Position numbers and translations under genes: made by a program. A stretch of 64,000 nt of DNA from Kineosporia sp. R_H_3 (GTDB lineage: Bacteria > Actinomycetota > Actinomycetes > Actinomycetales > Kineosporiaceae), in assembly GCF_002198675.1 (NCBI RefSeq), contig NZ_MWLL01000160.1:30730-94729 (forward strand), in the 5' to 3' direction. Position 1 is the stretch's first letter. Each line of letters opens with the position of its first letter. This document shows positions 8,391 through 64,000 of the stretch, one piece after another. Below the pieces are notes generated by a model. It searched no databases, had not been told where the DNA came from, and worked only from the letters and a program-made list of their open reading frames with translations.

Positions 8391-8846
8391 TCAGTCCCGG
8401 GGGGCGCGCTGCGCGGGGGTCCGCACGGTGACCGACGGGTCGGACGACGCCCGCCGCACCTGGGACAGCGCGAGGGTGTCGGCCGCGGCGGGCTTGCGCT
8501 CCCGGCCGGCCCGCTCGACGGTGTCGACGAGCCCGGCGAGGGTGGTGAGCACCTGGTGCGGGGAGACGTCCGGCGGCAGGGTCACCCGGGTCTCGAGCCC
8601 CGGGCCCTCGACGACGAGGCGGGTCGTGGCGGTCGGCGGCCGCCGGAAGACGCAGAGGCAGATGGCCTGCGCCAGCGTCGGGAGCTGGTCCTTGAGGTCC
8701 CTCGTCGACGAGACGCCGGTGACGACGTCGAGGCCGTCGATGCTCACCGTCAGGGTCACGCTGTCGCTCGGGACGGCGGGGACCAGGTCCTCCTCGCGGA
8801 GCGCTGCGAGAACGTCGGATGGAACGTGGAGCTCAACTGAGGTCAC
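8391..8846 (-). CDS. Small protein of unknown function
   Basis: A 151-residue protein that I do not recognise with confidence. It begins TSVELHVPSDVLAAL, then alternates strands and helices (SVTLTVSIDGLDVVTGV, a helix DLKDQLPTLAQAICLCVF, strand TTRLVVEGPG) and ends in a charged Ala/Arg-rich tail. The strand-helix-strand core faintly resembles small actinobacterial effector-associated constant components, but no effector gene is adjacent. There is no signal peptide or membrane segment. The start is a GTG with GGAG 8 bases upstream. A strong hairpin follows it, so it is probably monocistronic. Confidence 0.7.
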   Translation of the reverse strand: MTSVELHVPSDVLAALREEDLVPAVPSDSVTLTVSIDGLDVVTGVSSTRDLKDQLPTLAQAICLCVFRRPPTATTRLVVEGPGLETRVTLPPDVSPHQVLTTLAGLVDTVERAGRERKPAAADTLALSQVRRASSDPSVTVRTPAQRAPRD

Positions 8847-9145
8847 GACACGACTCCGTCGTCATGGGGCTAATTGCCAGCGAAATGGGCTGACCGGAAG
8901 ATAACGACGGACACTACAAGTAGTTGGCGGGTATTTACCCTCAGTAACACGGTGAGATCCCCCGAACACCTGAGGTCGTGTGCGCAATCCGACACGCCGC
9001 ACTGTCGGCGACGAGTCTTCTGAGTCTCTCGGGACTGTCGGGGCGCTTGTGGTGAAAGGGGCTGCTGCGGCGACAGAGCGTGAGACCGGGGCGGTCGGTC
9101 GATCCCCGACGGGTCGCGGCGTCCCTCGCGCGGGTGCGGGCAGCC
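8847..9145. other. Intergenic region, promoter of the small gene
   Basis: About 300 bases without a gene. The part nearest the small gene (8870-8960) is less GC-rich and probably holds its promoter: reading the minus strand, TTATCT at 8895-8900 and TAAATA at 8931-8936 are possible -10 boxes. No strong hairpin, repeat or RNA gene was seen. Confidence 0.3.
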
Positions 9146-9730
9146 CTAGCGGGAGTCCTGGACGCGGTCGTCCGACCGCGGCGCGAACCACTCGTCCCGC
9201 AGCTCGACGGCCTCGGCCGGTGCGGCGTCCCACGGCCCCGGCATGGCCACGGCGGTCCCGCCGGACGCCAGCTCGACCCCGGTCCCGCCGTCCGGCCGGC
9301 CGCACACGCACGCGGCGGCGTACGCCCAGCCCGGTGCCAGCTCCCAGCGGGCCCAGATCCCGGCGCGGCCGGCGTCGTAGGACGCGCCCCAGGAGTCGGC
9401 GACGGCCGCGACGATCTGCAGGCCCCGGCCGCCGGAGCGTTCCCACTCGTCCGGCCCGGCCGCCGTCGCCGCCCGCAGCGCGCGGCGGGGCGGACCGGTC
9501 CCGGCGTCGCTGACGAGGATCTCGAGGGTCCCCGAGTCCACCGTGATCCGGCACGCGGCGTCGCCCGGGGAGTGCACGAGCGCGTTCGTCACGAGCTCGT
9601 TGAGCACGAGCAGCGCCCTGTCCAGCTCGCCGTCGAGATCCCATCGGCGGAGCACCTCGGCGGCCCACCGCCGGGTCAGGCGCGGCGACTGCGGATCGGC
9701 GACGAGGTCGCGTCGTGCCACGCGGCACAC
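9146..9730 (-). CDS. ATP-binding protein, RsbW-like GHKL anti-sigma kinase type
   Basis: A 194-residue single-domain GHKL ATPase. It shows the N-box ALLVLNELVTNALVHSPG (about 40-57), the Asp of VSDAGTGPP (about 74-82) and the G-box SGGRGLQIVAAVADSWG (about 98-114). This class (HATPase_c_2) includes the anti-sigma factors RsbW and SpoIIAB and many uncharacterised actinobacterial regulators. The C-terminal ~70 residues, with an AACVCG cysteine pair, are variable. The start is a GTG with GAGGA 12 bases upstream. Together with the two PP2C phosphatases in the window it points to partner-switching signalling, but no partner is adjacent. Confidence 0.82.
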   Translation of the reverse strand: MCRVARRDLVADPQSPRLTRRWAAEVLRRWDLDGELDRALLVLNELVTNALVHSPGDAACRITVDSGTLEILVSDAGTGPPRRALRAATAAGPDEWERSGGRGLQIVAAVADSWGASYDAGRAGIWARWELAPGWAYAAACVCGRPDGGTGVELASGGTAVAMPGPWDAAPAEAVELRDEWFAPRSDDRVQDSR

Positions 9731-9851
9731 GGCCGCATCACATCCTCTCGGGCCGGCCTGTCGGTCGTTCGGTCGTGCCGGACCAATGCACCCCGGAACG
9801 GTCCTTCGCGCATCTCGGGCGGTCCCCCCGGGCGCCCGGGCAGCGACCGGG

Positions 9852-10529
9852 TCAGGGGACGAACCGGTACCCGAGCCCCGGGTCGGTCACGAGGTGCCGC
9901 GGGTTCGACGGGTCGTCCTCGAGCCGGTCGCGCAGCTGCTTCATGTACTGGCGCAGGTAGTGCGTCTGCTTCTCGTACGTCGGCCCCCAGACCTCGCGGA
10001 GCAGCGTCCGCTGGCCGACGAGACGGCCGGGGCTGCGCACGAGCATCTCCAGCAGCCCCCACTGGGTCGGTGTGAGGTGGACGGTGGTCCCGTCGTCCGC
10101 GCGGGCGGTCCGGTCCTCGACGTCGACGGTGAACCGGCCGAGCCGCACCGGATCGGCCGGCAGGCTCGGTGCGTGCCGCCGGGCGACGGCCCGCAGCCGG
10201 GCGAGCAGCTCCTCGACGTCGAACGGCTTGGTCACGTAGTCGTCGGCCCCGGCGTCGAGCGCCGCGACCTTCTGCCGGGCGTCGAGCCGGCCGGACAGCA
10301 CGAGGATCGGCACCGGTGACCAGCCGCGCAGCGAGCGGACGACGTCGACGCCGTCGACGTCCGGGAGCCCGAGGTCGAGGACGACGACGTCCGGGTGCTC
10401 CGCGGGGACGGCGGCCAGCCCGCCCCGGCCGTCCGCGGCGGAGACGACCTCGTAGCCGCGCGCCCGCAGCAGGATCGCCAGCGTGCGCCGCAGGGCCGGC
10501 TCGTCGTCGACGACGAGCACCTTCGTCAT
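9852..10529 (-). CDS. kdpE: KdpE-type OmpR-family response regulator
   Basis: A 225-residue response regulator: receiver domain 1-115 with acidic pocket D8/D9, phosphoacceptor D52 ([10 protein letters not shown]) and Lys of DDYVTKPF. A winged-helix OmpR/PhoB DNA-binding domain follows (about 130-225; [20 protein letters not shown] and [17 protein letters not shown]). The [11 protein letters not shown] run and pairing with a KdpD identify it as KdpE. Its ATG overlaps the kdpD stop by four bases. KdpE classically activates kdpFABC under potassium limitation, but no kdpFABC is in the window. The divergent permease at 13208 is a possible target. Confidence 0.94.
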
Positions 10530-56498: not shown

Positions 56499-56516
56499 CT
56501 TGAAGAAGTGTTCAAG
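56499..56516. promoter_or_regulatory. ArsR-type operator dyad
   Basis: CTTGAA (56499-56504) and TTCAAG (56511-56516) form a perfect 6-6-6 dyad that ends five bases before the ArsR ATG. There is no Shine-Dalgarno, so the transcript is short-leadered or leaderless and the operator should cover the promoter. This fits autorepression by the downstream ArsR protein. Confidence 0.7.
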
Positions 56517-56521
56517 TGCTA

Positions 56522-56866
56522 ATGTCTGCGATCGTGCCCGTCCCGCTGTACCAGGCCAAGGCCGAGTTCTTCCGGACCCTCGGCCACCCCGCCCGCATCC
56601 GGGTGCTCGAGCTCCTCAGCGAGCGCGACCACGCCGTCCACGAGCTGCTCGACGCGATCGAGATCGAGCAGAGCAACCTGTCCCAGCAGCTCGCCGTGCT
56701 GCGCAGGGCCGGTCTCGTCGTCCAGCGCCGCGAGGCCGGGTCGGTCGTGTACGCGATCAGCGTCACCGAGGTCCGGGACCTGCTGCTGGCCGCGCGGGCG
56801 ATCCTCGCGGCGGTCCTCGCGGGCCAGGAGCAGCTGCGCAGCGAGCTCGGCGGGGGTGCCCCGTGA
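56522..56866 (+). CDS. ArsR/SmtB-family regulator, Rv0081-like
   Basis: A 114-residue winged-helix regulator: YQAKAEFFRTLGHPARIRVLE, HAVHELLDAIEIEQSNLSQQLAVL (recognition helix), then VVQRREAGSVVYAIS. There is no cysteine, so the classical ArsR and SmtB cysteine metal sites are absent, as in M. tuberculosis Rv0081. It heads the membrane-complex operon in the same order as Rv0081-Rv0087. In M. tuberculosis this regulator belongs to the hypoxia network. The start is ATG 56522; GTG 56516 in the same frame is possible. Its stop overlaps the next start (GTGA). Confidence 0.9.
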   Translation: MSAIVPVPLYQAKAEFFRTLGHPARIRVLELLSERDHAVHELLDAIEIEQSNLSQQLAVLRRAGLVVQRREAGSVVYAISVTEVRDLLLAARAILAAVLAGQEQLRSELGGGAP

Positions 56867-57363
56867 GCCTGCGCGGCTGGCTCGCCCTCGCGCGCCGCAC
56901 CGGCCGGATCGCGGAGCCCGCGGCCCCGCGGCCGGCCGGCCCTGCCGGTGAGGCGCGGGCGGACACCGGGATCCTCGCCGGGTCCGTGCAGGTCCGGCAC
57001 GTCGACGCGGGGTCCTGCAACGGGTGCGAGATCGAGGTCGCGGCGGCTTTCGGGCCGGTCCACGACGGGGAGCGCTACGGCGCCCGGCTCGTCGCCTCGC
57101 CCCGGCACGCGGACGTCGTCCTCGTCACCGGGGTCGTCACCCGCAACATGGCCGAGCCGTTGCGCCGCACGGTCGACGCGACGCCGCGGCCGCGTCTCGT
57201 CGTCGCGATGGGCGACTGCGCGCGCGACTGCGGCGCCTTCGCCGGCGGGTACGGCGTCGTCGGTGCGGTGAAGGACGTCGTCGACGTCGACCTCGAGATC
57301 CCCGGGTGCCCGCCGCGCCCGGAGGCGGTCGTCGAGGCCCTGCGCACGGTCACGCGGCGATGA
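56863..57363 (+). CDS. NuoB/HycG-like iron-sulfur small subunit
   Basis: A 166-residue small subunit of the hydrogenase-4/complex I family. The proximal [4Fe-4S] ligands are present: CNGCE near residue 48, the Cys of MGDCARDCGAF near 112-115 and GCPPRPE near 148. It corresponds to Rv0082 and to HyfI/HycG. It passes electrons between the catalytic large subunit and the membrane arm. Unlike the large subunit, its cluster motif is complete. It overlaps neighbours by four bases on both sides. Confidence 0.9.
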   Translation: MSLRGWLALARRTGRIAEPAAPRPAGPAGEARADTGILAGSVQVRHVDAGSCNGCEIEVAAAFGPVHDGERYGARLVASPRHADVVLVTGVVTRNMAEPLRRTVDATPRPRLVVAMGDCARDCGAFAGGYGVVGAVKDVVDVDLEIPGCPPRPEAVVEALRTVTRR

Positions 57364-59411
57364 GCCTGCGCCTCGGGCTGCTCGCGGTCCTGTCGCTGGC
57401 CCTCGTCGCGGCCTGCGCCGGTGGTGCGCTGGGAACCGCTGCCCGGCAACGGGTCTCGCCGTTGCTCGGTGCGCTCGTCGGGGCGGCCGCGGTGTGGACC
57501 GGAGCGCTCGCCTGGTCGGGTGGCACCGGGGGTCTCGTCGTGGGCACCGTCCTGCCCGGCGTCGGTGCGCGCTACGCACCGGACCGGCTCGGCGGTGCGT
57601 TCCTCGTGCTCGTCGGCGCGGTCACGGTGCTCGCCTCGGTCTGGGCACTCGACGGTGCCCGCGGCACCGCCGCCTCCCGGACGGCCTGGGTCGCCTACCC
57701 GCTCTTCGTCCTCGGGCTGCTCGGCGTGATGGCCGCGGCGGACGTCGTCGCGTTCCTCCTCGCCTGGGAGGTCATGGCCGTCGCCTCCGCCGTCCTCGTC
57801 CTCGCCGACCACGCCCACCGCCCCGAGGTCGTCGGTGCCGGCCTCTGGTACGCCGGGATGACCCAACTGTCGTTCCTGCTCGTCCTCGGCGGGTTCGCCG
57901 TCCTCGCGTCGGCCGCGGGCGGCACCGCGTGGGCGGACCTCGCCCGGCTCGCCCCGGACGCCGGGGCCACCGGGCTCGGGGTCGGCCTGCTGCTGCTCGG
58001 GTTCGTCACCAAGGCGGGCGCGGTGCCGGTGCACGTCTGGCTGCCCCGCGCGCACCCCGAGGCGCCGAGCCACGTGAGTGCGCTCATGAGCGCGGCGATG
58101 GTCAAGGCGGGCGTCTACGGGGTGCTGCTCGTCGTCGTCCGGCTGTTCCCCGCCGGTCCGTCGTGGTGGGGGCTCGTGCTGCTCGTCGTCGGGTCGGTGT
58201 CCGCCGTCTTCGGGATCCTCCAGGCGGGTGTCGCCGCCGACCTCAAGCGGCTGCTCGCGTACTCGACGACCGAGAACGTCGGCCTCATCCTCGTCGCCGT
58301 CGGCGCCGCGCAGGTGACGACGGCCCGCGGGGACGTCGCGACCGGCCACGTGCTGCTCGTCGCCGCGCTGCTGCTCACGTCCGGGCACGCCGCGGCGAAG
58401 TCCGTCCTCTTCCTCACCGCGGGATCGGTGCTGCACGCCACGGGTCTGCGGGACCTCGACCGGCTCGGCGGCCTCGGCCGCACGATGCCCTGGACGTGCG
58501 GTGCGTTCGGCGTCGCCGCCCTCGGCGCCGCGGGTCTGCCCGTGACCGCCGGGTTCGTCGCGGAGTGGACGCTGCTCCAGGCGCTCGTCCACGCCGGCGG
58601 CCCCGCCGACCCCCGGCTCGGACTCGTCTCCGCGCTCGCGGTCACGGTCGTCGCGCTCACCGCCGGGCTGGCGCTCATGACCTTCACCAAGGCGTTCGGG
58701 ATCGCGTTCCTCGGCCGGCCGCGCAGCGACGGGGCGGCGGCCGCGCACGAGGTCGGTCGCGCCGAGCGGGTCGCCGCCGCACTCGGCGCCCTCGCCGTCC
58801 TCGGTCTCGGGCTCGTCCCCGGGCCGATGGCCACGGCGGCCGTCCGGGCGCTCGGCGTGGACGGCGTCACCGCCGCGGGCACGACGCTCGCCGCAGGCGT
58901 CCGGCTGGGTGGCGTCGCCGCCGCCCCCGGTGCCGTGGGCGGTGCCGCGGCCGGTGCTGACGGGCTCGTCCCGGTCCTCGACCCGCTCGCTCTGAGCCTG
59001 GCGACCCTGGCCGCGCTCGTCGTCGTCGCCGGCGTCGTGGCCCGGCTGCGCCGCCGCGCCGCGCGCCGGGCGGTCGAGCTGGGCTGGGGGTGCGGCGGTG
59101 CCCGGGTCAGCCCTCGGATGCAGTACACGGCGACCTCCTACGCCGAACCGCTCGTGCGCATCTTCGACGCGCCGCTGGGGGTGAGCCGCTCGGTCGCGAC
59201 GACGACCGCGGACGCGCCCTATGTCGTCCGTGCGATGTCGTTCCGGCAGCGGGTCCGGGACGTGTTCGAGGAGCACGGGTACCGCCCGCTGCTGCGTGCC
59301 GCGGCCCGGGTCGGCGACGCCGGCCGCGCGCTGCACAACGGCAGCGTGCACCGCTACCTCGCCTGGTCGTTCGCGACGTTCGTCGTCGTCCTCGGGCTGG
59401 CGGCCCGGTGA
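57360..59411 (+). CDS. HyfB/HycC-like proton-pumping membrane subunit (NuoL/M/N family)
   Basis: A 683-residue membrane protein with about 16 helices. It has the Nuo antiporter-type core: LLAWEVMAVASAVLVL, FVTKAGAVPVHVWLPRAHPEA with the key Lys, HVSALMSAAMVKAGVYG, DLKRLLAYSTTENVGLIL and GHAAAKSVLFL. A hydrophilic region near 570-655 (WGCGGARVSPRMQYTATSYAEPLVRIF) is typical of HyfB/HycC. It probably moves protons or cations, and corresponds to Rv0083. The ATG overlaps the small-subunit stop by four bases. Confidence 0.91.
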   Translation: MSLRLGLLAVLSLALVAACAGGALGTAARQRVSPLLGALVGAAAVWTGALAWSGGTGGLVVGTVLPGVGARYAPDRLGGAFLVLVGAVTVLASVWALDGARGTAASRTAWVAYPLFVLGLLGVMAAADVVAFLLAWEVMAVASAVLVLADHAHRPEVVGAGLWYAGMTQLSFLLVLGGFAVLASAAGGTAWADLARLAPDAGATGLGVGLLLLGFVTKAGAVPVHVWLPRAHPEAPSHVSALMSAAMVKAGVYGVLLVVVRLFPAGPSWWGLVLLVVGSVSAVFGILQAGVAADLKRLLAYSTTENVGLILVAVGAAQVTTARGDVATGHVLLVAALLLTSGHAAAKSVLFLTAGSVLHATGLRDLDRLGGLGRTMPWTCGAFGVAALGAAGLPVTAGFVAEWTLLQALVHAGGPADPRLGLVSALAVTVVALTAGLALMTFTKAFGIAFLGRPRSDGAAAAHEVGRAERVAAALGALAVLGLGLVPGPMATAAVRALGVDGVTAAGTTLAAGVRLGGVAAAPGAVGGAAAGADGLVPVLDPLALSLATLAALVVVAGVVARLRRRAARRAVELGWGCGGARVSPRMQYTATSYAEPLVRIFDAPLGVSRSVATTTADAPYVVRAMSFRQRVRDVFEEHGYRPLLRAAARVGDAGRALHNGSVHRYLAWSFATFVVVLGLAAR

Positions 59412-60370
59412 GCGGCGAGGTGCGCGTGGTGGTCGCCGTCGTGCTCCAGACGGTCGTCGTCGTCGTGGCCGCGCCGTTCCTCGTCGGGGTGCTGCGCCAG
59501 GTGCGCGCCCGCTGGGAGGGCCGGGTCGGCCAAGGGCTGCTCCAGCCCTGGCGCGACCTCGTCAAGCTCGCGCGCAAGGAGCCGTTGCAGGCGAACGGCT
59601 CCACGGTCGTCGCCTGGGTGGCGCCCGTCGTCGTCCTCGGTTCCGGGCTGCTGCTCGCCGCCCTCGTGCCGACGGTCACCACCGCGGGGCCGGCCCGGCT
59701 GCCCGCGGACCTGTTCGTCGTCGTGTCCGTGCTCCTCGTCGGGACCGTCGCCCTCGGCCTGCTCGGCCTCGACGCGGGCTCCGCCTTCGGCGGCATGGGG
59801 TCGAGCCGGCACCTGACGATCGCCGCCCTCGTCGAGCCGACGGTGCTGCTGGCCGTGTACGCGCTGTCCGTGCCGGTCGGCTCGACGGCGCTCGGGCCGA
59901 TCGTCGAGGGCCGGCTCGCCGACCCGGGCCGCGTCGTCGCCCCCGCCGGGGTGCTCGCCGTCGTCGCGCTCGCGATCGCCGTCGTCGCGGAGACCGCGCG
60001 GATCCCCGTCGACAACCCCTCGACGCACCTCGAGCTGACCATGGTCCACGAGGCGATGGTGCTCGAGTCGTCGGGCCGCGACCTCGCCGCCGTCGAGCTC
60101 GGCTCCTGGCTGCGGCTGTCCGTGCTCCTCGCGCTCGTCGCGAACCTCGTCGTCCCGTGGGGCGTCGCGACGGCGGGCGACGGCCCGGGTCTGCCGGCCC
60201 TCGCCGTCGGCGTCGTCGCGGTCGTCGTCAAGACCGCGGTGTCCGGCGTCCTGCTCGCCACCGCAGAGGTGTTCATGGCCAAGCTCAGGCTGTTCCGGGT
60301 GCCGGAGCTGCTCACCGGGTCGTTCGTGCTCGCCTTCCTCGCCGTGACGGGTTCCTATGTCATCGGGTGA
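59408..60370 (+). CDS. HyfC/HycD-like membrane subunit (NuoH family)
   Basis: A 320-residue membrane protein of the NuoH/HycD family with about eight helices: RVGQGLLQPWRDLVKLARKE after helix 1, GGMGSSRHLTIAALVEPTVLL, ETARIPVDNPSTHLELTMVHEAM with the conserved Glu residues, and AEVFMAKLRLFRVPELL. It joins the soluble arm to the pump subunits. It corresponds to Rv0084. The GTG overlaps the preceding stop by four bases. Confidence 0.92.
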   Translation: MSGEVRVVVAVVLQTVVVVVAAPFLVGVLRQVRARWEGRVGQGLLQPWRDLVKLARKEPLQANGSTVVAWVAPVVVLGSGLLLAALVPTVTTAGPARLPADLFVVVSVLLVGTVALGLLGLDAGSAFGGMGSSRHLTIAALVEPTVLLAVYALSVPVGSTALGPIVEGRLADPGRVVAPAGVLAVVALAIAVVAETARIPVDNPSTHLELTMVHEAMVLESSGRDLAAVELGSWLRLSVLLALVANLVVPWGVATAGDGPGLPALAVGVVAVVVKTAVSGVLLATAEVFMAKLRLFRVPELLTGSFVLAFLAVTGSYVIG

Positions 60371-61070
60371 CGCGAGCCAGGCGGTGGCGGTCCTCGCCGG
60401 CCTGGAGCTGCTCACGGCCGTGCTCCTCGCCTGGCGCGGTCCGGCGAGCTCGCCGCGCGGGCCGCTCGCGGTGCAGGGGTTCGCGCTCGCCGGGCTCGTC
60501 GCCGTCATCGGGGTCGCGGAGGGCGAACCCGTGCTGTGGCTCGTGGCGCTGCTCGTCGCCGTGCTCAAGGGGGTCGTGCTGCCGACGCTCGTCGTCCGGC
60601 GTCCGGGGCGGACGGCCCGGCCCGATCCTGCCCGAGCGGCCGTCGCCCGGCCCGTCGTCCGTCCCGCCGTCGTCCGTGGCCGCAGCCGGGTGCCGCTCCT
60701 GCTCGGCGCGGCCGGGCTCGTCGTCGTCGCGTACCTCGCCGCCCGGCCGGTGGCCCGGGTCGTCACCGGGGCGACCGGGCAGGCCCTCCCCGTCGGGTTC
60801 GCGCTCGTCCTCGTCGGCTTCGCGCTCCTCGCGACAGGCCGGCGCTCGCAGTCGCAGCTCGTCGGGTTCCTCGTGCTGGACAACGGGATCGCGACGACGG
60901 CCTTCCTCGCGACGGGCGGCGTCCCGCTCGTCGTCGAGCTCGGCGTCTCCCTCGACGTCCTCCTCGTCGTCCTCGTCCTCCAGGTCCTCGGGTCGAGGAT
61001 CGACACGGCGTTCGGTGCGGGCGCCCCGGGCGGCACGGACCTCGACCAGCTGAGGGAGCTGCACGACTGA
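60357..61070 (+). CDS. HyfE-like membrane subunit (NuoK family)
   Basis: A 237-residue membrane protein with about six helices, similar to HyfE: LAGLELLTAVLLAW, AGLVAVIGVAEGEPVLWLVALL, LKGVVLPTLVVRR and GRRSQSQLVGFLVLDNGIATTAFL, with VELGVSLDVLLVVLVLQVLG. A basic hydrophilic loop (about 82-108) sits between the halves. It corresponds to Rv0085. It starts 14 bases inside the preceding gene, and its stop overlaps the next ATG by one base. Confidence 0.87.
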   Translation: MSSGDASQAVAVLAGLELLTAVLLAWRGPASSPRGPLAVQGFALAGLVAVIGVAEGEPVLWLVALLVAVLKGVVLPTLVVRRPGRTARPDPARAAVARPVVRPAVVRGRSRVPLLLGAAGLVVVAYLAARPVARVVTGATGQALPVGFALVLVGFALLATGRRSQSQLVGFLVLDNGIATTAFLATGGVPLVVELGVSLDVLLVVLVLQVLGSRIDTAFGAGAPGGTDLDQLRELHD

Positions 61071-62572
61071 TGGCCGCCGTCCTCGCCTCTCCGCTCACTG
61101 CCCCGCTCGGTGTCGCGCTCGTCTGGGTCGCGCTCCTCGGGCCCGCGCTGTGCGCGCTCGCCGTGCTCCTGCTGCGCCGCCGGGCGGTCGTGCTGGTCGC
61201 GGACGTCGTCGCGTCGTCCGTCGTGCTGCTCTGCGGGGTCGCGCTCCTGGCCGGGGTCGCGGACGGCGGCGCCGCGGTGGTCACCGCCGGCGGCCTGCTC
61301 CGCGTCGACCCGCTCGCCGGGTACCTGCTCGTCGTCGTCGGGGCGGTCGCCCTCACGGCGACGTGGGGCGGGCTCAGCCCCGCGCGGGCCCGCTCGCGCC
61401 GCGGCGGCCGGTACACCGCGCTCGTCTGCCTGTTCCTCGCGGCGATGGTCCTCGCGGTCGTCGCCGACGACCTCGGCGTCACGTGGGTCGCCGTCGAGGG
61501 CACGACCATCACGACGGCCTTCCTCGTCGGCTTCGCCGGTGGCCGGCGGGCCGTCGAGGCGGCCTGGAAGTACGTCGTCCTCGCCTCGGTCGGCGTCGGC
61601 ATCGCGTTCCTGGGCCTCGTGCTCCTCTACGCGGCGACCCGGGCCGCCGGCGACCCCACGCTGTCGTGGGTCCGGCTCGTCACCGACCGCCCGGCGGTCG
61701 ACCCGACGGTCGCACGGATGGGGCTGCTGCTCGCGGCGCTCGGCTTCGCCACGAAGGCCGGCCTCGCCCCGATGCACGCCTGGCTCCCCGACGCGCACAG
61801 CCAGGCACCCGCGCCGGTCTCCGGGCTCATGTCCGGCGTCCTCCTCGCGGTCGCGTTCGGCGCCGTGCTCCGGATCCAGCGGCTCGACGCGGTGCTCCTC
61901 GACGGCACCGCCGTCCGGACACTGCTGCTCGTCGGCGGGCTGCTCTCGCTGCTCGTCGCGGCGGTGCTCGTCGTCACCCAGCGGGACGTCAAACGGATGC
62001 TCGCCTACTCGAGCATCGAGCACATGGGGCTCGTCGCGGTCGCCGCGGCGGTCGGTGGCCGGCTCGCCCTCGCGGCGATGCTCGTCCACCTGCTCGTGCA
62101 CGGCCTGGCCAAGGCGAGCACGTTCGTCATGGCAGGCCGGGTGCTCGCCGTCGAGCGGACGACGACGATCGCCGACGTCCACGGCCTGGTGCGCAGCGCC
62201 CCCCGGGTCGGCATCCCGTTCCTCGCCGGTGCCGTCACGCTCCTGGGCCTGCCGCCGTCCGGGCTGTTCCTCACCGAGGCGGCGCTCGTCGTCGCGGGTC
62301 TGCGCGCCGGGTACGGCTGGGCGATGGCGATCGTCCTCGTGCTGCTCCTCGTCGTGTTCGTCGGCATGGGGCGTGCCGTCATGGCCATGACCCTCGGGGC
62401 GCGCCCGGAGCCCGCCGGCCCGCCCGAAGCCGTTGCTGCGGCGACGGAGGCGTTGACGGCACCGCTGGTGCCCGTCGTGCTCGCACTGACCGCCGCGTGC
62501 CTGCTGGTCATGGCGACCCCGCTGGCCGGCACGCTGGACTCCGTCGTCGCCGTCCTCGGAGGTGCCCCGTGA
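61070..62572 (+). CDS. HyfF-like proton-pumping membrane subunit (NuoL/M/N family)
   Basis: A 500-residue membrane protein with about 14 helices and antiporter-type motifs: WVAVEGTTITTAFLVGF, AAWKYVVLASVGVGIAFLG, GFATKAGLAPMHAWLPDAHSQ, DVKRMLAYSSIEHMGLV and HGLAKASTFVMAG. Two such subunits (this one and 57360) give two potential ion-translocating units. It corresponds to HyfF and Rv0086. The large-subunit GTG overlaps its stop by four bases. Confidence 0.91.
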   Translation: MAAVLASPLTAPLGVALVWVALLGPALCALAVLLLRRRAVVLVADVVASSVVLLCGVALLAGVADGGAAVVTAGGLLRVDPLAGYLLVVVGAVALTATWGGLSPARARSRRGGRYTALVCLFLAAMVLAVVADDLGVTWVAVEGTTITTAFLVGFAGGRRAVEAAWKYVVLASVGVGIAFLGLVLLYAATRAAGDPTLSWVRLVTDRPAVDPTVARMGLLLAALGFATKAGLAPMHAWLPDAHSQAPAPVSGLMSGVLLAVAFGAVLRIQRLDAVLLDGTAVRTLLLVGGLLSLLVAAVLVVTQRDVKRMLAYSSIEHMGLVAVAAAVGGRLALAAMLVHLLVHGLAKASTFVMAGRVLAVERTTTIADVHGLVRSAPRVGIPFLAGAVTLLGLPPSGLFLTEAALVVAGLRAGYGWAMAIVLVLLLVVFVGMGRAVMAMTLGARPEPAGPPEAVAAATEALTAPLVPVVLALTAACLLVMATPLAGTLDSVVAVLGGAP

Positions 62573-64000
62573 GCGCGACACCCACCGGACCTCTTCTCCC
62601 GCAGCCGGTCATGACCCGCCCGACGACGCGGGCGACGCTCCGGGCCGACGTCGCGGCCCTGCTCGCGGACGGGCACCGGATGCTCATGGTGGTCGCGGAG
62701 AACGCGCCGGGAGCCGTCCGGCTGGGGTACGTGCTCGCCCGCCCCGCCGGCGGTCCGGACCACGGTGCGCAGGAGAGCCGGGTCGAGCTGACGCTCGAGG
62801 TGTCGACGGACGACGCCTGGGTACCGACGATCGCCGACCAGTCGTACCCGGGGGGCCGGTTCGAGCGCGAGATCCGCGACCTGTTCGGGGTCGAACCGCG
62901 CGACCACCCGCTGCCGCGACGGCTCGTGCGGCACGCGCACTGGCCGAGGGCGTGGCACCCGCTCCTCGGGGAGCGCTCGGCGCAGACGGACGTCGTCCCG
63001 GACTTCGGTGAGGACCTCAGCGCGTTCCCGTTCCTCGAGGTCGGCGGCGACGGGGTCTACGAGATCCCGGTCGGGCCGGTGCACGCCGGGCTCATCGAGC
63101 CGGGGCACTTCCGGTTCTCGGTCGTCGGGGAGACGATCGTCCGGATGAAGGCGCGCCTGTGGTACCTCCACCGGGGGGTCGAGAGGCTCTTCGAGGGCCG
63201 GACGCCGGACGACGGGGTCGTTCTCGCCGAACGGATCAGCGGTGACACGGCCGTCGGTCACACCCTGGCGTACGCGCTCGCGTGCGAGGAAGCGCTCGGG
63301 CTCGTCGTGCCGCCGCGGGACAGGCTCGTGCGCGCCCTGCTCCTCGAGCTCGAGCGCATGCACAACCATGCCGCGGACCTCGGGATGATCCTCAACGACG
63401 TCGCCTTCGGACTGGCCAACGTGCACCTCCAGCGGGTCCGGGAGAACCTGTTGCGGCTCAACGACTCCGTGACCGGCCACCGGCTGCTGCGCGGCGGCGT
63501 CCGGGTCGGCGGGGCGGACGTCGTCGCGCTGCCCGACGCGGGACTCGTGCGGGCTGCGGCGGCGGACGTCGCCGACGTGGTCCGGCTCGCCCTCGAGCAC
63601 CCCATGGTGCTCGACCGCCTCGTCGGCACCGCGGTGCTCGGGCGTGAGGACGCGGTGCGGATGGGAGTGCTCGGCTACGTCGCCCGCGCCAGCGGCGTCG
63701 ACGTCGACGCCCGGCGGGACCACCCGTTCGTCGACCCGGCCGTGCTGCCCGGCGGTGCGCCCGACGCGGTCGTCGACGCCGAGGGGGACGTGCTCGCGCG
63801 GTTCACGGTGCGGGCCCGGGAGGTCGAGGCGTCCGCGCGGTTCGTCGTCGCGGCCACCGAGGTGCTCGCGGGCGGCGGCCCCGGGGCGTCGGCCGGTCCG
63901 AGACCCGCTGCACCGCAACGCGTCACGCGGGGTCTGGGGGTGGTCGAGGCCTGGCGGGGACTGCTCTGCCACCGTGTGACGGTGGGCGCCGACGGTCGCC
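62569..64000 (+). CDS. HyfG/HycE-like large subunit lacking the first NiFe cysteine pair (C-terminus beyond right edge)
   Basis: 477 residues are visible, with no stop before the edge. An N-terminal NuoC-like part (about 15-130; GGRFEREIRDLFGVEPRDHPLPRR) is fused to a NuoD/HycE-like part (GPVHAGLIEPGHFRFSVVGE, LWYLHRGVERLFEGR, LLELERMHNHAADLGMILND). In NiFe group 4 large subunits this region continues with RxCGxC. Here it reads ERISGDTAVGHT (residues 221-232), with Ser and Thr at the cysteine positions, so nickel cannot be bound as in hydrogenases. It corresponds to Rv0087. The catalytic reaction is unknown. Confidence 0.9.
   Translation, partial: MSATPTGPLLPQPVMTRPTTRATLRADVAALLADGHRMLMVVAENAPGAVRLGYVLARPAGGPDHGAQESRVELTLEVSTDDAWVPTIADQSYPGGRFEREIRDLFGVEPRDHPLPRRLVRHAHWPRAWHPLLGERSAQTDVVPDFGEDLSAFPFLEVGGDGVYEIPVGPVHAGLIEPGHFRFSVVGETIVRMKARLWYLHRGVERLFEGRTPDDGVVLAERISGDTAVGHTLAYALACEEALGLVVPPRDRLVRALLLELERMHNHAADLGMILNDVAFGLANVHLQRVRENLLRLNDSVTGHRLLRGGVRVGGADVVALPDAGLVRAAAADVADVVRLALEHPMVLDRLVGTAVLGREDAVRMGVLGYVARASGVDVDARRDHPFVDPAVLPGGAPDAVVDAEGDVLARFTVRAREVEASARFVVAATEVLAGGGPGASAGPRPAAPQRVTRGLGVVEAWRGLLCHRVTVGADGR

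Follow-up and report, generated by a model that had tools for sequence, protein, structure and literature searches.

The window, that is the whole stretch of 64,000 nucleotides that was analysed (G000:C69:30730-94729), belongs to a 7.26 Mb actinobacterial draft genome and ends within an operon whose genes all lie on the same (+) strand, mostly overlap and are headed by an Rv0081-like ArsR-family regulator gene (56516..56866; Pfam HTH_5, E 3.9e-12). Next come six subunit genes of a membrane complex, all with intact frames. They encode a NuoB/HycG-like small subunit (56863..57363; Pfam Oxidored_q6, E 2.5e-29), a HyfB-like antiporter subunit (57360..59411; NCBIfam hydrogenase 4 subunit B, E 2e-139, under the curated cut-off), a NuoH/HycD-like membrane anchor with acidic residues of the E-channel type (59408..60370; Pfam NADHdh, E 9.9e-35), a HyfE/HycP-like membrane subunit (60357..61070; NCBIfam hydrogenase 4 membrane subunit, E 3.9e-9), a HyfF/HycQ-like antiporter subunit (61070..62572; NCBIfam hydrogenase 4 subunit F, E 1.2e-90, again under the curated cut-off) and a NuoCD/HycE-like large subunit devoid of Ni-Fe ligands (62569..64000). 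The latter gene starts with GTG at 62569 and leaves the window, but since the contig extends 1,146 bases past the window end, its product could be completed to 522 aa (L005:7569-9137, stop at window-equivalent 64137). The following gene is convergent on the opposite strand, so the operon ends at the large subunit. The downstream search for formate dehydrogenase or ferredoxin partners that a preliminary description of this DNA had proposed thus reached the convergent gene and then the contig end; no such partner was found in the operon or downstream of it up to that point.

Alignment of the large subunit to E. coli HycE (PDB 7z0s, E 1.8e-56) places S224 and T227 at the positions of C241 and C244, and S516 and G519 at those of C531 and C534. 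That is, RISGDT (residues 222-227; 63232..63249, + strand) replaces RVCGIC, the N-terminal RxCGxC motif, and NQSYAG replaces DPCYSC; the C-terminal counterpart of RISGDT, NKSFNQSYAGNDL (residues 510-522), lies past the window on the + strand (L005:9096-9134). Because both CxxC pairs are substituted at the HycE-aligned positions, all four Ni-Fe ligands are, as judged by this alignment, absent from the large subunit. The preliminary description had claimed the lack of the NiFe CxxC site and had recognised RISGDT, which it placed at residues 223-227; the claim holds for both pairs, while the motif begins one residue earlier. Reading the gene to its end, as suggested there, revealed no C-terminal CxxC pair, which disposes of an intact C-terminal NiFe motif beyond the window, and nickel maturation genes adjoining such a motif were likewise not found. 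A sequencing error or frameshift hiding a CGxC motif had also been considered as a possible objection. The frame is open and contains no CGxC, the copies in two other genomes of the same genus (93-94% identical) carry the same RISGDT motif, and a motif of this type is common to ten sequences with identities down to 37%; an error is excluded because same-genus copies and distant relatives share the motif. The AlphaFold2 model of the large subunit (pLDDT 88) has 7z0s_E as its best PDB match (TM 0.84); the pocket was assessed via the alignment to HycE rather than from model coordinates.

A pattern scan of genome contigs matched at least 580 encoded relatives, of which 80 were kept for comparison. 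The signature R[IV]SGD[TS] ... NKSFNxSY[AS]GND hardly varies among these about 80 relatives, which come from many phyla. Of the 81 large-subunit sequences, 75 have S224, all have G225 and 79 have D226, and N510 and K511 are kept in 81/81, S516 in 79/81 and G519 in 79/81, whereby the counts for the stretches matching G[LI]IEPGHF and NKSFN[LQ]SY are partly selected, because both were scan patterns. SGD was no search pattern, and loci retrieved through the small subunit alone also show both large-subunit motifs. One kept relative, from Thermincola (L094), still has RICGAC and ELCYSC. A further four-Cys relative with RAC[GA]AC and ELCY[SA]C, and with Asn rather than His after the first motif, was met in Actinobacteria (L022, L024, L029, L030), in two cases (L029, L030) in the same family as the window's genome; this type may be an uncharacterised group 4 hydrogenase. 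Another Cys-less large-subunit type (L018, L019, L020, L021, L023), with SGT[DS] and a C-terminus such as SFAMSQAACDG, branches just outside the SGD family. The window's genome also encodes a second NuoD paralogue (L007; G000:C92, ORF 8549-10228, - strand), which has NRHDWLSAF, VVGDVDK at the C-terminus as compared to DPVMGGVDR, and neighbours that are not complex I-like. The missing C-terminal extension cannot serve as a sign of lost maturation, since those four-Cys relatives that stand closest (L094, L022, L024, L029, L030) likewise lack it.

HypD of the window's genome is encoded on contig C19, adjoining a genuine hydrogenase with RICGIC and SFDSCLVC, and contig C221 carries part of another hydrogenase. 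Two sets of genomes carrying the complex contain HypD in 16/32 and 9/20 cases, respectively. HypD was not found in 27/51 carrier genomes, a count that omits L094, where the Ni-Fe ligands are kept, and that covers some incomplete assemblies; isolates (Cryobacterium, Lentzea albidocapillata, Actinopolymorpha) are among the carriers without it. An annotated FHL-2 locus (L123), which served as contrast case, contains formate dehydrogenase, ferredoxin subunits, HycH and HycI. None of these is present in the plasmid loci of annotated relatives in Rhodococcus, Burkholderia and Methylocalor, which comprise the six core genes. With four Ni-Fe ligands absent and HypD residing beside another hydrogenase, the earlier proposal that hydrogen chemistry looks lost is upheld.

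The small subunit keeps C52, C55, C119 and C149, as seen in the alignment to NuoB and HycG, and is predicted to hold one [4Fe-4S] site, the proximal cluster; it contains no ferredoxin domain. The preliminary description had noted these iron-sulfur ligands correctly and concluded that electron transfer looks intact. This conclusion goes too far: a single [4Fe-4S] site is left, the window operon encodes no ferredoxin-type subunit (NuoI/HycB/HycF) and neither an NADH module nor the NuoI cluster wire, and relatives lose the site as well. A motif scan of reading frames in the family operons and their surroundings detected two-cluster ferredoxin domains on just two small subunits, those of L094 and L082; a further gene with such a domain, at L104, lies on the opposite strand beyond the operon, and the single matches in L055 and L087 fall in short, overlapping frames. 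In L086, L087, L092, L093, L098, L107 and L110, the small subunit carries an N-terminal extension that resembles this domain but is short of cysteines, and the domain is absent from most small subunits of the family. In the first set, which includes L094, 60 out of 68 small subunits keep all four cluster ligands.

As to the membrane arm, the HyfB-like subunit keeps E137, K218, K347 and E402, and the HyfF-like subunit keeps E143, K229 and E403. The preliminary description had stated that two pump subunits retain their key lysines; in the HyfF-like one, the second (TM8-type) lysine is missing. E143, E195, D202, E209, E215 and E220 of the NuoH/HycD-like anchor are conserved across the family. Of the features that mark the ion translocation arm of the complex I superfamily, the antiporter residues (Glu in TM5, Lys in TM7, Lys/Glu in TM12) and the acidic NuoH E-channel are present. 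Within the large subunit, H172 in the beta1-beta2 loop and the canopy arginine R463 are invariant in the family and E177 is mostly kept. The position of the NuoCD quinone-site histidine is occupied by Ile (I176) in the whole family, and Asn (N514) stands at the position of the canopy aspartate, which is strictly conserved in complex I (PMC9474812, the FHL structure paper, also for the roles of the loop and canopy residues). With this residue pattern, neither hydrogen chemistry nor quinone reduction of the complex I type is supported.

By gene content and sequence motifs, the window complex belongs to the published Ehr family, group 4-related complexes without CxxC whose function is not known; they have been described from Sulfobacillus (PMC4378227), comammox Nitrospira (PMC10284858), ammonia-oxidising archaea (PMC10432482) and Patescibacteria (PMC7304191). 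It combines a group 4-type large subunit devoid of RxCGxC and DPCxxC with a NuoB-like small subunit and membrane subunits of the HyfB/HyfE/HyfF/NuoH types, all encoded together, and thereby resembles published Ehr complexes, which lack either CxxC pair and have NuoH/HyfB/HyfE-type neighbours. HydDB handles Ehr as a class for exclusion (PMC5037454). Nitrospira and archaeal loci are among our relatives (L076-L081, L087, L088); compared at the level of lineages, those of Nitrospira and of ammonia-oxidising archaea group in one tree set that is separate from FHL and complex I. What the published work reports is the missing Ni-Fe ligands; repeated cluster loss, decay of ferredoxin domains and the SGD/NKSFN signature are not described in the open-access Ehr papers, supplements apart, and a prior description of cluster loss outside the open-access main texts is possible. 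Two further papers, one dealing with R. equi (PMC13332983), the other with continuous cultures of Nitrospira (PMC6606698), contain nothing on the complex.

Among characterised systems, E. coli Hyf/Hyc provides the best structural and sequence match and shares H188/H172 and the canopy arginine R478/R463. In contrast to it, the window complex lacks the Ni-Fe cysteines, has the canopy Asp replaced by Asn and is devoid of ferredoxin subunits, formate dehydrogenase, HycH, HycI and the 32-residue C-terminal extension. Neither the four Cys ligands and dedicated maturation genes of group 4 [NiFe] hydrogenases nor the formate dehydrogenase and ferredoxin-type linker subunits of a formate hydrogenlyase are found. 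Respiratory complex I has comparable NuoB, NuoCD, NuoH and NuoL/M/N-like parts with the key Lys and Glu residues kept, whereas the window complex lacks the NADH module and NuoI, and the NuoD quinone-site histidine and the canopy aspartate are changed. Mrp antiporters and the Pyrococcus MBS and Mbx complexes share antiporter-type subunits and are used here for a works-like comparison only; Mrp has no NuoB/NuoCD/NuoH cap, and MBS and Mbx are redox enzymes.

The regulator of the window operon finds its best PDB match in Rv0081 (6jmi, E 1.1e-29 versus 1.1e-10 for the next), and an ArsR match is present in 33/81 loci. The regulator family as well as the order of genes, i.e. ArsR followed by the small subunit, HyfB-like, HycD, HycP, HycQ and HycE-like genes, agree with M. 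tuberculosis Rv0081-Rv0087 (gene order tabulated in PMC6901956), which differs in carrying a hydrogenase ('formate hydrogenlyase') annotation. Because Mycobacterium relatives (L043, L048, L051) carry the SGD signature, this label is probably wrong for M. tuberculosis, judging from the sequences of these relatives.

In some relatives, even the last cluster appears to be lost. Ten of the 11 Microbacteriaceae genomes with a small subunit have lost cluster ligands and one keeps all four. The ligand states are CCCS and CCCN with one loss, which alone does not rule out a cluster, and GCAS and ACAS with three losses, for which the case is much firmer. In ten Patescibacteria genomes, the four positions read TCDD, DCDN, TEDD, SEGD, TEGD or DADN and thus contain at most one Cys; the same search also yielded two genuine hydrogenases, in which none of the eight cysteines is missing. 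All six genes are present in eight Patescibacteria and eight Microbacteriaceae operons, the remainder being cut at contig ends or at the ends of the retrieved stretches. In the large-subunit tree, the losses correspond to two changes in two separate clades, and a single joint clade is rejected (p-AU 1.7e-117); L166 from Patescibacteria and other long branches, whose tree position is unsure, were excluded from this count. By these sequence data, at least two lineages, the Microbacteriaceae and the Patescibacteria, have separately lost cluster ligands. The window copy falls into an 11-row branch together with Microbacteriaceae sequences and L031 (SH-aLRT 99). Between cluster-poor or cluster-less small subunits, dN/dS amounts to 0.06-0.39 where not saturated, and judged by this measure the operons are under purifying selection. 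They retain the large-subunit signature, and 18 of them keep the antiporter and E-channel residues with few exceptions; the ArsR regulator is still located beside the cluster-poor Microbacteriaceae operons. Although MAGs make up many of the cluster-less genomes, the pattern is seen repeatedly in different species and also in Cryobacterium isolates. In the small subunits of L158-L165 (Patescibacteria), mostly Thr, Asp and Glu stand in place of the cluster cysteines, and these residues could provide a putative divalent-cation site. One operon on a contig of a Thermoleophilia MAG (L104) is placed inside the Patescibacteria clade, reflecting either a mis-binned contig or horizontal transfer.

What is said here about cofactors is predicted from the ligand residues. 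The missing Ni-Fe ligands, the retained membrane residues and the repeated loss of cluster ligands in relatives are read from the sequences; assembly, ion translocation, ligand and driving force of the complex are what we infer. The data suggest that the family moves ions rather than hydrogen or electrons. Our favoured reading, which we hold tentatively, is that of an H+/cation translocator of the complex I/Mrp type, with a conserved function that does not require redox turnover. A NuoB/NuoCD-like cap would be joined to a membrane part made of two antiporter-like subunits, a NuoH-like anchor and a HyfE-like subunit. Hydrogen chemistry would be lost from the cap, and its electron path would be disappearing across the family, with the proton path retained. 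A conserved polar cap pocket formed by S224, D226, T227, N514, S516 and Y517, near H172, E177 and R463, may accept a proton or small ligand, and the cap may then gate or couple the membrane arm via the E-channel without net redox turnover; the remaining [4Fe-4S] cluster of the window copy could have a structural role, act as a redox switch or be a leftover. A redox-independent translocator appears to be the simplest explanation because the family conserves the arm, the cap link and the polar pocket and repeatedly sheds redox centres. The kept antiporter and E-channel residues, the nearly invariant signature, the cluster loss in two clades, the low dN/dS of the small subunits concerned, the decay of the ferredoxin domain and the full cysteine set of the genuine hydrogenases in the Patescibacteria search argue in favour. 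Conversely, the window copy and the 60 small subunits mentioned above keep four ligands, so that a redox role may be possible there, and loss in derived lineages need not mirror function in the rest of the family. Viewed as a history, a widespread branch of the complex I/hydrogenase superfamily may have shed redox chemistry stepwise, from the Ni-Fe site via the ferredoxin clusters to the proximal cluster, arriving at a redox-free, cap-gated ion translocator, a scenario that is plausible though by no means assured. With the same reservation, complexes of Patescibacteria and some Microbacteriaceae would be without any predicted redox centre, and the window copy would stand one step earlier.

The strongest competitor is a redox-driven pump with a new acceptor, which for four-Cys members such as the window copy is conceivable, if rather unlikely. 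A soluble low-potential donor such as ferredoxin, a flavoprotein or an untethered dehydrogenase would dock on the small subunit and feed the single cluster, the SGD/NKSFN pocket would house a quinone or another small molecule that accepts the electron, ions would be pumped, and the cluster-less relatives would be secondary derivatives. The HycE/NuoCD fold and the conservation of all four cluster ligands in most members, the window's included, fit this idea, as does the increase of Geobacter Ehr subunits on formate (PMC7894505). However, the operons contain no donor gene or ferredoxin subunit, I176 and N514 occupy the quinone-site and canopy positions, and cluster ligands were lost at least twice with everything else retained. 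Non-redox chemistry in the old Ni-Fe pocket, acting on CO2/bicarbonate or another small anion and driven by or driving ion flow, seems improbable: conserved Ser, Asp and Asn residues abound in the pocket and a SulP gene lies directly upstream in L089, L091, L096, L102 and L098, but SulP is missing from most loci including the window's, no Zn-type Cys/His set takes the place of the Ni-Fe ligands, and no carbonic anhydrase neighbour was noticed by inspection. That the operon is a decaying, functionless remnant is very improbable, as the lost cofactor ligands are set against six intact frames, strong conservation across phyla, dN/dS values well below 1 even in cluster-less members and the regulator retained in Microbacteriaceae. 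Least credible, and hardly to be entertained, is that the mycobacterial annotation is right and the complex is a [NiFe] hydrogenase or formate hydrogenlyase. Homology to hydrogenases 4 and 3 and the presence of HypD in the window's genome speak for it, but all four Ni-Fe ligands are missing, HypD resides beside another hydrogenase and is not found in over half of the carriers (27/51, see above), and formate dehydrogenase, HycH and HycI are lacking, unlike in the real FHL-2 locus.

Carriers of Ehr complexes range from nitrifiers and methanotrophs to mycobacteria, soil actinobacteria and Patescibacteria, and the literature still asks which electrons they carry. Natural complexes with an intact ion-moving arm and no predicted redox cofactor would offer direct test objects for cap-to-ion coupling in the complex I superfamily. 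The labels 'hydrogenase' and 'formate hydrogenlyase' on these operons appear misleading, probably also in M. tuberculosis.

Besides ArsR, no conserved partner gene was found in the neighbourhood of the operons; SulP is confined to methanotrophs and one Terriglobia locus and other neighbours vary. The SulP (sulfate/bicarbonate-type) genes are located 0-158 bp upstream on the same strand, in the methanotrophs L089, L091, L096 and L102 and in Terriglobia L098. Near the operons, transhydrogenase genes, two-component genes and genes resembling PEP carboxykinase turn up sporadically. Downstream of those in Pseudonocardiaceae (L034, L035, L042), a PEP carboxykinase-like gene and extra ArsR copies close to the operon were recognised by eye.
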